In this document: positions 3,001 through 8,539 of the stretch, one piece after another
Numbering within the stretch: position 1 is the first letter of the stretch
How the letters are laid out: each line of letters starts with the position of its first letter
NCBI GenBank assembly: GCA_946617225.1
Contig: CAMOJW010000004.1
Coordinates: 1 to 35,472, forward strand
Reading direction: 5' to 3'
DNA: 35,472 bases
Origin: an uncultured Lachnospiraceae bacterium
GTDB lineage: Bacteria > Bacillota > Clostridia > Lachnospirales > Lachnospiraceae
Notes under the pieces: model-generated
Seen by the model: only the letters and a program-made list of their open reading frames with translations
Databases searched by the model: none
What the model was told of the DNA's origin: nothing
Program-made: the position numbers and the translations under genes

Positions 3001-5804
3001 TACGGCATGATCTCCAATTCGATATCGGCTACATCCGTGTCGCTGACAGACCAGGAGACATTCTGTCCGGTATTAGTCGGATCGTTTGCATTGTAAACAT
3101 GTTCGTTCAATTCTATACGATCCTCGATGTAGTAGTGGTCATCGAAATCGTACAGGTCCATGTCGTTCAGGACATGGATCTTAAAGGTGGTTTTGAATAC
3201 TCCTTCTTCTGTAGATGTAGAGGCCGTGAGCACAGCTGTGCCCTTGGCCTTGCATTTCAGTTTATTGTCAGAAGTCACCTCTGCAACGGAGGGATCCGAG
3301 GAACTCCAGACAAATGAGTCTATACTCGAATCAAAAGTTAAATACGCTCTGCCGCTCAGATCGATCACCGTTCCGACTCCATAACCGGAATCAAGATCGA
3401 CATGAACAGATGACGATATATGCGTGAAGGCATCAAGATAATAGTCACCACAAGTCACCCTGAGAGTGAATTCGCCTTCCTCTAATGCCGTGAGTATTCC
3501 ATTCTCATCCACGGTCGCTATATTGGGATTGGAAGACTCCCACTGATAAACGGCATCATCAGGCTCGTCTCCCACCAGCCATACGATCCACTCTTTCAGA
3601 TCATAAGTAAGGCCGGTGTTCATGCCTTCCATATAAATATCAAATGGTGCCGTCACATGCAGAACAGTGTCTGCTGTGTACTTCCCATCAGTGACAGTGA
3701 GCGTAACAACACCCTGTTTATAAGCTGTCAGAATTCCGTTTTCATCAATGTCCGCTATGGACGGATCCTGGGAAGTCCAGACGAACTCCGCCGCACTCCC
3801 GTCATTGACATAGTATAGTCCTGTCAATTCCGGATCTGTCAGATCCAAGGTCTCGCCCACGGCACAGGACATCTCCTCGTGCTCGAATGCTATTCCGCAG
3901 ACCTTGACCACACAGACATCCTTGTACGCTCCGTCGATGGTCTGGGCAGTAATAGTCCTTACACCGATACCGTCAGTAGTGATCGTGACCGGTTCATTGA
4001 TGTACTTCATAAAGTCGTCGGAATTGTTATCCACTAGGATCACATTGTTCCAGGCGGTATCAGCAAAAATAGGACTGAGTCTCCACAGGACAGCCGTCGA
4101 GGAGGCATTTTCAGGAGTGATCGCAGCTGTCAGTTCGGCGGTCTCGCCCTGGTCCATGAACAGCTGGTGATAATTCAGCGTGACTCCTGTGGGGTGTACC
4201 GGATCGGAAGCGCCGCAGATGATATGGCAGCTGCCCTGATCAATAAACCATCCGCCGTTGACCCGATTCTGCCACATTTCTTCGGATCCCTGATAATAGA
4301 TGGCCGTGAAGCTGCCTATTACATCGTCACCGAGATATTGCACCGAAGAAGGGATATAAATGCTCTTTGCTCCATAGAAAGCATGTTCCCCGAGGTATGT
4401 CACGCCGGAGGGAACGACGACCTGCTCCAATTCTGAACTTGTAAAAGCATACCCGTCCACCTTCGTAAGTGTACTGGGCAATGCGATCGAACTGAAAGAT
4501 CTGACACCATTAAAAGCGCCGGTCCCGATCGATGTGATGCCTTCTCCGATCTCGATCTTCCGGATCTTACCGGCAAGCGCATCCCAGGGTTTGGTCTGAT
4601 ACGGCATGCTGACATTTTCGGGATTGCCTATCCTGCCGCTTCCGTTAACACGCAGGATACCATCCTCGGTCACTTCCCATGTGAAACCGCCATCTAACGT
4701 ACCGGAAGTGACATCCTGTCCCTGCTCCATCTGACTGGAATCACAGTGAACTGTAACGCCCGAACCGTAATAGATATCATTCCATTCCCCCTCCGTGCCC
4801 TGATAATAGATGACCATGCCTTCCGCAAAAGCATAGTTGTCAATATGAGTCACACTGTTCGGAATGTAAAGTGTAAGTCCCGTGCATCTGAAAAAGGCCT
4901 GATACTCAATAGTGGATATGGAATCAGGGAGTTCCAGTTCCCTGAGGCTGAGACAGCCATTAAAAGTATCAGAACCTATGACCTCGATTCCGTAGCCCAG
5001 CTGTACCTCAGTCAATTTAGGACAACCGCCGAAACACGACGCAGGCAGCGAAGTCAGCGTCTGCGGTAAGACCGCTTTCTTTAGCCGCGGCATTTCGGAG
5101 AACATAGCTTCACTCAGAGAAGTGATCCCCTCGCCAACGCGTACTTCCGTGATCCGCTCCTTATAATTGGCCCAGCTGAACTGTCCGTTGTAATATTCGT
5201 TGTATGTGCTTTCATAGAGATCTCCCTCTCCGGTGATCTCCAGGAGCATGCCGTCAGAGGTCTCCGTCACTTCCCAGAAAGCATCCGGACCGCATCTGCC
5301 GCTGGTCATCTCCTCATCGATGATGGTATAGTCCTTGGGGTCGCGAACGACCGGGTCGGACTCCTCACCGGGGATCTCAAAAACAAGATCGCCATTACCG
5401 GTATCGTTTGTGCCGGTCTCGTTAGTGGCGGCATCGTTAGATCCGGCATCATCAGATCCGTCATTTTCAGGCCTTTCAGCATCATTCGATGCCGATCCCT
5501 GAACGGGTGCTGCAGGTCCCCTGTCGCTTCCCGCATCTCCGGAAGGCTGTTCAACAGCATCCTGTCCGCTGCCTGCAGGCTGTTCGGCTGAGGCGGACTC
5601 AGGCTGTGCCTCTTCATTGTCTGCAGATCCCCCACGATCTGCAGCCGGCTGCTCCTCTGCTGCCGGACTCTTGTCTGCGCCGGAAGACTCCTCTGCCGAT
5701 GCAGGAGCAGTCTCTGTCTGCTCTGCCTCAGCAGCCGTCACAGGTACCGTGATGTTCGTGAAGATCATCGCGGCCGCCAGCATGACAGCAATAAAACGTT
5801 TCAT
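1..5804 (-). CDS. Giant secreted BspA-like surface protein (LRR_5 repeats, DUF285-type LRRs, Big_2 Ig-like domains, paired CxxC repeats, InlB_B/Flg_new-type repeats); C-terminus cut by left window edge
   Basis: Manual translation from ATG at 5804 (RBS AGGAGGGT) gives MKRFIAVMLAAAMIFTNITVPVTAAEAEQTETAPAS (signal peptide), then a low-complexity E/A/S/D/T linker, LRR_5 segments (IEIGEGITSIGTGAFNGVRSF, LKSIVLPESMEMLGEYSFSYSG), Ig-like repeats (WTSQDPSIADIDENGILTAYKQGVVTLTVT), DUF285-like MFKNCSSLEELDLSSFDLSS, and InlB-type repeats (FNANGGTGTMKTLTG...GYKFVGWNT...VTLYAQWE) at the edge. The start-codon frame and the frame read at positions 3-250 agree. Not in the ORF track because no stop lies in the window. 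Confidence 0.93.
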   Translation of the reverse strand, partial: MKRFIAVMLAAAMIFTNITVPVTAAEAEQTETAPASAEESSGADKSPAAEEQPAADRGGSADNEEAQPESASAEQPAGSGQDAVEQPSGDAGSDRGPAAPVQGSASNDAERPENDGSDDAGSNDAATNETGTNDTGNGDLVFEIPGEESDPVVRDPKDYTIIDEEMTSGRCGPDAFWEVTETSDGMLLEITGEGDLYESTYNEYYNGQFSWANYKERITEVRVGEGITSLSEAMFSEMPRLKKAVLPQTLTSLPASCFGGCPKLTEVQLGYGIEVIGSDTFNGCLSLRELELPDSISTIEYQAFFRCTGLTLYIPNSVTHIDNYAFAEGMVIYYQGTEGEWNDIYYGSGVTVHCDSSQMEQGQDVTSGTLDGGFTWEVTEDGILRVNGSGRIGNPENVSMPYQTKPWDALAGKIRKIEIGEGITSIGTGAFNGVRSFSSIALPSTLTKVDGYAFTSSELEQVVVPSGVTYLGEHAFYGAKSIYIPSSVQYLGDDVIGSFTAIYYQGSEEMWQNRVNGGWFIDQGSCHIICGASDPVHPTGVTLNYHQLFMDQGETAELTAAITPENASSTAVLWRLSPIFADTAWNNVILVDNNSDDFMKYINEPVTITTDGIGVRTITAQTIDGAYKDVCVVKVCGIAFEHEEMSCAVGETLDLTDPELTGLYYVNDGSAAEFVWTSQDPSIADIDENGILTAYKQGVVTLTVTDGKYTADTVLHVTAPFDIYMEGMNTGLTYDLKEWIVWLVGDEPDDAVYQWESSNPNIATVDENGILTALEEGEFTLRVTCGDYYLDAFTHISSSVHVDLDSGYGVGTVIDLSGRAYLTFDSSIDSFVWSSSDPSVAEVTSDNKLKCKAKGTAVLTASTSTEEGVFKTTFKIHVLNDMDLYDFDDHYYIEDRIELNEHVYNANDPTNTGQNVSWSVSDTDVADIELEIMPYDNGEETVYYEYYYITFFRAGTLTLTATSKDTGVSSSITLTVVDHGQTEHTHEFHFVMGEAPDCTNGGQTDYWVCDICGKIFRDEYGAEEISYEDTLLPAEGHSLVHEFGYTVGGETEYWYCENCGRVFRDEDGLYETELAEIVMAEEFIPSVPSDIEVGEVVPILLTILPANTTNKTLAFDYSDPGVAEIYQEEGTYYIRGLRPGNTDIGISTMDGSNLGEVCYVTVHGETSPWLEDYDAYYDSYDHYIELSYYNGDQRDIVVPGSGILDGMESDYIRIDFEVFPSDTRSLTLQPGVHLPYNCPGYFSTITGLEELHMSGLDVTEHKDMSKLFEGCGNLQTIDLTGWDTSGVTKISRMFKNCSSLEELDLSSFDLSSLAGVNEDVFEGMTALRVIRAPLHLEKEIALPAVFSTPDGELVTSLPLELSESITLTYDHPLDAPVVQKAKWKVTGSGAKRTLTFYGNGTLKGYDNQNPPWKSNRKNIIKVVFENGVTDMGDLQFYSLQNVQTVVIGSGIQVINPAAFGGCAKLKSVKLSEGLKEIRSSAFMDCTALKSIVLPESMEMLGEYSFSYSGMSSINFPENLEVIAEGVFTGSQFQTVTIPSWLTRIPDDLFYGCTKLQSVTIPDTVTCIGNGSFGYCPSLSSIDFPAGLQEIGSYAFSECSGIDGYVLPEGIRKVGERAFLSSNAGYIVIPESLEKIEGDTLGLIYQGNIYYAGSREQFDRLFDELVNEFGSWEDFEQSYNIYCGVRTIIPAESIAVELPELIDFDASTGPITAQIGPDDATCQSVTLESSDRGIVSVYEDEDGWHLFGEDDGWARITASAKDGSGTSYSQIVRVSGNTAYNKNKFSVIFNANGGTGTMKTLTGIPYKTGKALTANAFKRKGYKFVGWNTSKDGSGLAIANKGVAKELTRTNNGKVTLYAQWELIDYTINYVMNSGEEAEDAPLTRTYTVIDAVTLQKPVREYYVFSGWDSDSKFKTKGTAIKKGTTGNKTYYAKW

Positions 5805-6866: not shown

Positions 6867-7478
6867 ATGGCACGAATCACCCCCAAGCAGGAACAGATCC
6901 TGGAATATATCAAGAAAGAGATCTTAGAGAAGGGTTACCCGCCGACGGTGCGTGAGATCTGCGAGACTGTTCATCTCAAATCCACCTCTTCCGTTCACTC
7001 CCACCTCAATTCCCTGGAGCGCAACGGTTTCATCCGCCGCGATCCCACCAAACCGCGCGCCATCGAGATCTGCGACGACAGCTTCCAGATGGTCCGCACG
7101 GAGATGACCTCTCTTCCCATCGTCGGCAGGGTGGCTGCCGGCGAACCGATCCTCGCTCAGGAGAACATCGAGGAGTATTTCCCAGTACCGGCTGAGCTGG
7201 TCCCTTCGGGTGAGTCCTACGCCCTGCGCGTCCACGGTGAATCCATGATCAACGCCGGTATCATGGACGGCGATCTCGTCATGGTCAATTCCGTCAACAC
7301 CGCCTCCAATGGCGACATGGTCGTAGCCCTGGTTGACGATTCCGCCACAGTGAAGACTTTCTACAAGGAGAAGGATCACATCCGTCTGCAGCCCGAGAAC
7401 GACAATATGGATCCCATCATCGTCGACAACTGCATCATCCTAGGGAAGGTCTGGGCTGTGTTCAGGTATCTGAGGTAA
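6867..7478 (+). CDS. lexA: LexA repressor (SOS regulator)
   Basis: MARITPKQEQILEYIKKEILEKGYPPTVREICETVHLKSTSSVHSHLNSLERNGFI... HTH plus S24 peptidase domain (VHGESMINAGIMDGDLV). Confidence 0.98.
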   Translation: MARITPKQEQILEYIKKEILEKGYPPTVREICETVHLKSTSSVHSHLNSLERNGFIRRDPTKPRAIEICDDSFQMVRTEMTSLPIVGRVAAGEPILAQENIEEYFPVPAELVPSGESYALRVHGESMINAGIMDGDLVMVNSVNTASNGDMVVALVDDSATVKTFYKEKDHIRLQPENDNMDPIIVDNCIILGKVWAVFRYLR

Positions 7479-7490
7479 ATGATTGTGATG

Positions 7491-7520
7491 AAAGCCGTGC
7501 CGGGAGGGCACGGCTTTTTT
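7491..7520 (+). terminator. lexA Rho-independent terminator
   Basis: AAGCCGTGCC GGGA GGGCACGGCTTTTTT. Confidence 0.9.
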
Positions 7521-7602
7521 AATGTTGCGAAATCTTTTTTTATGCGGCCCTGAGAGCGGATCTTACCACAGCTTTGTCTTATATCCGGTTTTGTCCGGTG
7601 AA

Positions 7603-7997
7603 ATAAGCCCAACTCCTGTTTCCGCTTTTCGGGGCTTACTACCTTTCCTGCAATGTAAGCCGTGGGCAGGAAATAGCGACTCGAGGCTTACGGCTATTCC
7701 GGAGATATAAGCTCGAACCCTGATAATCTGCGCGTGGGCTTATTACTCCTTTGACTCAAATAAGCTCAAGGCTATTATCTACCCCTTGAGGCTTATGTGC
7801 CCGTAAGCCCCCAAAGGGGATTATCCCTTCCAGGCTTATCGTCACGAATATCCTGTAAGCTCTAAAGGCTATCTCGCATCCGCTGGGCTTACTATCACCA
7901 AAAGTCTATAAGCCCAGAAGAGGAACCTTGCGCTTGCGGGCTTATCTTCTCAAGAAATATGTAAGCCCGGAAGACGGTTCCCCGCTTCCAGGCTTAC
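7603..7997. repeat. Phased inverted-motif array: 8 x [RTAAGCYY - ~20 nt - RRGCTTAY], period 52-53 bp (one 43-bp unit)
   Basis: Forward TAAGC motifs start at 7604, 7656, 7708, 7761, 7804, 7856, 7909, 7962; reverse (A/G)GGCTTA motifs start at 7632, 7684, 7736, 7789, 7832, 7885, 7938, 7990. Coordinates counted directly; intervening sequence is not conserved. Confidence 0.95.
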
Positions 7998-8115: not shown

Positions 8116-8481
8116 TCAGAATTCAGAAGGATCGACCATCCGGCCGTCGCGCCAGATGCGCTCGAGGTCGTAGAGGAGACGGTTCTGGGCGTCGAAGACG
8201 TGGACGATGATGTCGCCAAAATCGAGTAGTACCCAGCCGGCGGCGTCGTAGCCTTCCGTCTGGCGGATGGGGCAGCCTGCCTTCTCCACGGCTTCCGTGA
8301 CGGCGTCTGCGAGAGCCTGGATCTGGGGTACGTTGTTGCCGCCCGCGATGATCATGTAATCGGCGAGGACGGAGACACCGCTGATGTCGATGACGCGGAT
8401 GTCGACGGCTTTTTTGTCTTCCAGGGCCTCAATGGCGATCTTCACAAGTCTGTTCGAATTGTTTAATTCCTGTGTGCTCAT
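8116..8481 (-). CDS. rsfS: Ribosome silencing factor RsfS (Iojap/YbeB family)
   Basis: MSTQELNNSNRLVKIAIEALEDKKAVDIRVIDISGVSVLADYMIIAGGNN...YDAAGWVLLDFGDIIVHVF; start at 8481 preferred (GGAG upstream) over the ORF-track 8532. Confidence 0.95.
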   Translation of the reverse strand: MSTQELNNSNRLVKIAIEALEDKKAVDIRVIDISGVSVLADYMIIAGGNNVPQIQALADAVTEAVEKAGCPIRQTEGYDAAGWVLLDFGDIIVHVFDAQNRLLYDLERIWRDGRMVDPSEF

Positions 8482-8539
8482 ATTCGTCTCCATTTCTTGA
8501 CGTTGTCTGTTGTCACGCAGCTGTCCGGTCATCTGAAGT

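Follow-up and report, generated by a model that had tools for sequence, protein, structure and literature searches.

The plasmid centromere and iteron arrays (parC, tubC, parS and RepA iterons) consist of many short, helix-phased sites that support cooperative protein assembly; the known ones number one or a few per replicon, each next to the gene of its own protein. The chromosomal sites matS, SBS and NBS, tens of which are dispersed for one DNA-binding protein each (MatP, SlmA and Noc, respectively), are short palindromes that occur singly, and their motifs are conserved between species. MITEs, BOX and Correia elements are non-coding, mosaic and present in tens of copies per genome. BIMEs and REPs are built of alternating inverted units in tandem, located mostly between convergent genes (PMC2817692; PMC3733652), and in REPs, one end of the palindrome bears an unpaired tag, GTAG or CGTC (PMC3733652).

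The DNA analyzed here is a stretch of 35,472 nucleotides (hereafter, the window) from a gut Lachnospiraceae genome (G000; draft assembly, 79% complete) that contains an array of half-sites between lexA and rsfS. Like the plasmid centromere and iteron arrays, it consists of many short, helically phased sites that would allow proteins to assemble cooperatively; unlike them, arrays of this kind are present in many copies per chromosome and alternate in orientation at 29 and 23 bp, and no gene of a cognate protein was found next to them. They share dispersal at tens of sites with the chromosomal organizers (matS, SBS, NBS) but are arrays of 12-20 half-sites with species-specific motifs. The resemblance to MITEs, BOX and Correia elements lies in their non-coding, mosaic nature and their tens of copies per genome, the difference being that the core is a phased site array and that no terminal repeats were seen. 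No description of dispersal, fixed geometry and motif turnover in combination was found in the literature searched.

The array comprises 16 alternating half-sites at positions 7604-7996, eight TAAGCYC (F) and eight RGGCTTA (R). The F half-sites (TAAGCCC, TAAGCTC or TAAGCCG) start at 7604, 7656, 7708, 7761, 7804, 7856, 7909 and 7962, with spacings of 52, 52, 53, 43, 52, 53 and 53 bp, and the R half-sites (GGGCTTA or AGGCTTA) at 7632, 7684, 7736, 7789, 7832, 7885, 7938 and 7990, with spacings of 52, 52, 53, 43, 53, 53 and 52 bp. The F-to-R steps are 28 or 29 bp and the R-to-F steps 24 or 25 bp, the sole exception being the 15-bp step from 7789 to 7804, where the gap is 8 nt (TGTGCCCG) rather than 17 nt as elsewhere. 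The dyads are about 26 bp apart, and 21.5 bp next to the short gap. On re-reading the half-site positions, all the spacings given in a preliminary description of this sequence (52-53 bp, dyads at about 26 and 21.5 bp) were correct, as was its derivation of the 43-bp exception from an 8-nt instead of a 17-nt gap between the fourth R and the fifth F site. The composite pattern TAAGCYC-N18-24-GGCTTA has nine matches in the window, all inside the array, and none in 100 dinucleotide shuffles. The features of the locus are listed in Table 1.

Table 1. Features of the lexA-rsfS locus in the window
Feature	Position	Strand	Basis
lexA, upstream neighbor, convergent with rsfS	6867..7478	+	Pfam LexA_DNA_bind, Peptidase_S24
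Intrinsic-terminator-like hairpin of lexA with T-run (aaagccgtgccgggagggcacggctttttt)	7491..7520	+	sequence
End1, conserved 5' flank of the dispersed element (ATGCGG..GAGC..CACAGCTTTGTC..TCCGG)	7543..7603	+	blastn to L096, L100, 80-85%
Left half-array, 4 F/R unit pairs; 17/18-nt linkers, T-tract toward the junction	7604..7795	.	
Head-to-head junction ('pivot'), AGGCTTA-TGTGCCCG-TAAGCCC	7789..7810	.	short step in 17/20 long arrays, plus one with a second at its edge
Right half-array, 4 unit pairs; linkers of the reverse-complement type (A-tract)	7804..7996	.	
End2, conserved 3' flank, up to the rsfS stop codon	7997..8115	+	blastn to >15 G000 loci
rsfS, downstream neighbor, convergent	8116..8532	-	Pfam RsfS

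Several tens of arrays of this kind are present in G000. The composite TAAGCYC pattern has 65 matches on some sixteen contigs of this genome (none in the reversed control) and about 36 matches in the genome of a sister species (G001). A second version, TAGGCCY/RGGCCTA, is represented by 95 matches per strand in G000 and by none in 60 other genomes, including G001; in all these pattern searches, matches to the reversed controls were zero or nearly so. The TAAGCC (A-type) and TAGGCC (G-type) arrays have identical steps and often lie side by side or in tandem. Each array is pure for one version, with only three stray sites of the other kind (exact sites in arrays of at least eight sites; the L102 chain, where an A array is joined to a neighboring G array, was left out), and arrays of the two types look homologous unit by unit only weakly (identity 0.46 for matched versus 0.42 for shifted units). 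Among some 450 other genomes of the genus and family, no A- or G-type arrays were found, and two single pattern matches in other genera are not within an array. The arrays inside one genome are related by descent, so the counts of sites and steps are not independent. Many arrays are located at contig ends (contigs C27, C53, C60 and C76 of G000; C32 and C83 of G001); the draft assemblies break within arrays, and the copy number is therefore underestimated.

Of the 20 long arrays (at least 14 sites) of G000 and G001, 17 contain one and only one short interior step (R to F, 15 or 16 bp). An eighteenth, L092, contains a 15-bp step and a second short step at its degenerate edge, and of the two long arrays without a short step, one runs into a contig end. 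The preliminary description had rightly noted the short step but regarded it as an irregularity of a single repeat; because it recurs about once per array across the genome and in the sister species, the short step is a design feature, and a deletion in one repeat is ruled out as the cause of the 43-bp step. Asymmetry is evident in the 17-nt linkers, whose T-tract is directed toward the short gap on either side: T-type linkers prevail on the left (63:7) and A-type linkers on the right (61:4), with a nominal p of 3e-25 that overstates independence given that the arrays are related. The polarity of the linkers flips at the short gap, which is therefore the head-to-head junction of two oppositely oriented half-arrays. 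Thus, the 43-bp step in the window is a conserved head-to-head junction, and positions 7796-7803 are the dyad of the whole array. In two G001 arrays, the junction is longer, 36 and 57 bp (+21 and +42), with the adjacent R site degenerate in both; these lengths agree with whole helical turns. The GCAGAC and ACTGTC arrays of other species, described below, are unidirectional and lack a junction, so that the junction is not essential to the geometry.

When the steps between the 6-mers were counted with no spacing filter, the F-to-R steps were almost always 29 or 30 bp and the R-to-F steps 23 or 24 bp, plus 14 bp at the junction. The mean periods of the three TARGCC sets are 52.34, 52.28 and 52.55 bp. 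An intergenic locus downstream of the HpaB gene is orthologous in two species (coding flanks 88-90% identical) and contains an array in both; across the arrays of the two species, loops and linkers are at background similarity (identity of 0.39 for both matched and shifted units), with the spacing kept within +/-1 bp. Such tolerance over diverged sequence shows a constraint on spacing, for which a rigid protein scaffold is as good an explanation as the matching of helix faces, the two being hardly separable. A motif-free scan of congeners detected GCAGAC arrays in G033 and ACTGTC arrays in G016, with periods of 53.07 and 52.00 bp, respectively; in genus-wide searches, GCAGAC arrays were found in G033 and G080, and ACTGTC arrays in G016, with essentially zero matches in the other genomes and in the reversed controls. 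When TAAGCC, TAGGCC, GCAGAC and ACTGTC are aligned on the geometry, the common pattern, as read from the motifs, is NNNGNC. Motif-free scans of about 30-200 kb each, small parts of the genomes G003, G004, G015, G017, G024-G026, G028-G030, G032 and G035, yielded no clear array. Locus L191 (G025:C9, 105-218) contains a short row of CTCCTAAG/CTTAGGAG half-sites with a period of about 42 bp (four turns), which may be a shorter-period relative of the arrays. A 52-bp tandem repeat in Paenibacillus sp. J5C2022 (L077, 6219-6500; TTTGTA-N10-TACAAA) was dismissed as a relative, since it looks like nothing more than a recent tandem duplication.

Between G033 and G080, the lengths of orthologous arrays differ by 159 bp (three units), by 53 bp (one unit) and by single bases; in one case, the change does not correspond to a unit (net 17 instead of 53 bp), and another array contains a 3-bp insertion. 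The expectation that indels would cluster at 10-11 or 21 bp holds only at the junction (15/16 bp; 36 and 57 bp on degenerate sites), the changes elsewhere being +/-1 bp, the single +3, the single non-unit change and whole 53-bp units. Strict quantization of indels by helical turns is thus only partly supported. Whole-unit changes keep the phase, yet recombination between repeats alone gives them too.

In a set of 184 distinct units, the two arms lack Watson-Crick covariation at their variable positions 6 and 7, where C-A combinations occur roughly as often as T-G, and pairing within the loops is at the background level; positions 1-5 are fixed by the site-calling threshold and carry no evidence on covariation. 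At position 3, covariation reflects solely the A/G switch between array types; inside each array, this position is pure. With arms that vary independently and loops at background, the half-sites behave as independent duplex sites. The initial proposal of selection on DNA rather than RNA is borne out by these observations, together with the spacing kept over diverged loops and linkers and the geometry kept with different half-sites; DNA-level selection on the spacing is accordingly supported.

The arrays of G000 are parts of a larger mosaic with conserved flanks that includes the 5' part, which comes after terminator T-runs, a 61-bp module, present in tandem at several loci, small hairpins, and an inverted repeat with 27-bp arms. 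As in the window, arrays at other loci start directly after gene-specific terminators. End2 contains one unit of the 61-bp module, which L139 and L102 carry as a tandem repeat; two small hairpins follow this unit. The tandem module adjoins TAGGCC arrays in L102 (G000:C76, 693-992) and L139 (G000:C11, 4138-4520); it contains inverted arms of the CCGTGA/TCACGG type that vary together between loci, and might be yet another array of binding sites, with a motif of its own. The inverted repeat (L139, 4563-4639, and more than 15 G000 loci), with 27-bp arms (ACCATCTTCCGGGGCAGCTGTCAAGGA) and a 23-nt loop, is located near the stop codon of the convergent gene and is probably the terminator of that gene, common to several loci. 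Another tandem repeat of about 64 bp (GGAGTGACATCAGGAGACTTGTAAAGGCTC..) lies within the same mosaic element in L090 (G000:C6, about 4480-4800), and L212 (G000:C19, 12317-12674) contains a 71-bp tandem array of five units with GGCGGATCCGCC palindromes. The lexA/rsfS site of the sister species G001 is devoid of an array; it is too diverged to place the insertion junctions, and no TIR was seen.

Convergent gene pairs flank 10 of the 14 two-sided array loci in G000, compared to 17 of 181 background pairs, whereas the G033 and G080 arrays are located mostly in tandem or divergent gaps, with no convergent bias. The only divergent case in G000 is L103 (G000:C92, 3961-4073), a five-site partial array without a junction in the gap between a histidine phosphatase gene and a ferredoxin-type gene. 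The genes that adjoin the arrays are diverse metabolic and housekeeping ones. No recurrent regulator, recombinase or DNA-binding gene was found among the Pfam-scanned array neighbors; a binding protein could be encoded away from the arrays. A search for a gene common to the array neighborhoods recovered only ordinary homologs and orthologous loci (L139 and L252, a prs-like pair with no more than 49% identity, were not taken as orthologous). The sequence L102:1-1100 had no blastn match in phage and plasmid records, and the pattern matches in viral contigs are not arrays of this kind. A CRISPR array is not supported: the conserved part is only 6-8 bp, the element is flanked by lexA and rsfS, and the scanned neighbors are not cas genes.

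Among the alternative explanations, the one that differs from our preferred reading mainly in who benefits is a selfish dispersed DNA, MITE- or satellite-like, in which a transposase or recombinase provided in trans would bind the half-sites, and the motif would change because this enzyme and the element co-evolve. The dispersed copies with conserved flanks and modular make-up, the lack of an array at the sister species' lexA/rsfS site, the rapid motif turnover with two coexisting versions, and the position of End1 after terminator T-runs are all compatible with this scenario. However, there is no transposase or recombinase among the Pfam-scanned neighbors, a target-site duplication could not be shown, orthologous loci of sister species have retained their arrays, and the sites fill the entire array instead of its ends; we consider this explanation unlikely, albeit a serious contender. 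A REP/BIME-like origin, that is, imperfect palindromes that form DNA or RNA hairpins, are mobilized by a RAYT, are placed at the 3' ends of genes, and bind gyrase or IHF, is far less probable. The arrays do resemble REP/BIME (PMC2817692; PMC3733652) as dispersed intergenic inverted units in tandem that form modular mosaics, and in G000, the alternating units lie mostly between convergent genes. Yet, the unit of the arrays is set by the half-sites and their spacing on duplex DNA, with independently varying arms, unpaired loops and no conserved hairpin stem; the half-site motif is replaced between species; and the G033 and G080 arrays mostly occupy tandem or divergent gaps. Furthermore, most of the array-bearing species lack a RAYT: the Y1 transposase domain is absent in G033, G080 and G016, with one clear domain in G001 and one weak, interrupted match in G000, and the transposase/RAYT hypothesis was rejected on the ground of its absence from three of the five array-bearing genomes. 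The constant GTAG/CGTC tag is also missing from the array consensus R-TARGCCY, and related species use GGCAGACA and TACTGTC.

A multi-hairpin non-coding RNA appears highly improbable as well. Each F-loop-R segment can be drawn as a stem of 6-7 bp, and position 3 covaries, A-T in one array type and G-C in the other; such covariation between array types only is, however, what is expected of a palindromic DNA site, C-A mismatches are as frequent as T-G, and an RNA would give no reason for the dyad symmetry about the junction or for the five-turn period. The independent variation of the arms disfavors RNA hairpins. There is no Rfam match at the gathering score in the window and elsewhere only chance-level, sub-threshold ones, and the Rfam, tRNA and TRF scans of the window returned nothing for the array. 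The least probable explanation, to which we assign hardly any weight, is a neutral tandem repeat in which the spacing is a mere memory of recent unit duplication, with no selected function. Some arrays (L109, L176) indeed contain near-identical units, and the 53- and 159-bp differences between orthologous arrays are changes in unit number, but the loops and linkers of many arrays are at background while the half-sites and the spacing stayed within +/-1 bp, and four half-site motifs share the same geometry. Taken together, the comparisons with REP/BIME, CRISPR, Rfam RNAs, and phages and plasmids do not place the arrays in any of these classes.

Thus, with a probability that we put at about 0.66, the region in the window is one copy of a dispersed non-coding element, the core of which is a putative array of duplex binding half-sites (RTARGCCY); the sequence-specific protein that they serve would bind cooperatively and change its specificity from species to species under a constant geometry. 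Protein binding, its cooperativity and its co-evolution with the motif are what we infer from the sequence patterns. With half-sites alternating at about 29 and 23 bp between 6-mer centers, the repeat of about 52.4 bp amounts to five turns of B-DNA, and sites of like orientation share one helix face. Each unit is polar, with its asymmetric linker, and in G000, two runs of units face each other at the 8-nt junction. Protein dimers might then load next to one another along this face; the resulting nucleoprotein complex would be cooperative, possibly wrapped or filamentous, and would extend both ways from the junction, at intergenic regions and, in G000, mostly between convergent genes. The arrays would accordingly work like a nucleoprotein array of the centromere or operator type.

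A broader possibility, which we put forward tentatively and at somewhat less than even odds, is a genus-wide system in which a DNA-binding protein and tens of arrays co-evolve, with the half-site replaced genome-wide between species (TAAGCC, TAGGCC, GCAGAC, ACTGTC), an invariant five-turn, 29/23-bp geometry, two specificities in one species, and bidirectional assembly from the junction. If true, such a system would be a bacterial counterpart of the fast-evolving centromere or satellite arrays. Chromosome-wide DNA-binding systems of bacteria usually keep their motif across whole phyla; in the arrays described here, the geometry stays constant, one motif gives way to another from one congeneric species to the next, and a single genome contains two versions. 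The arrays therefore allow a direct test of how a binding protein and tens of its targets change together, and of whether the driver is host chromosome organization or a selfish element, and they offer a natural collection of data on how proteins assemble along helically phased DNA.
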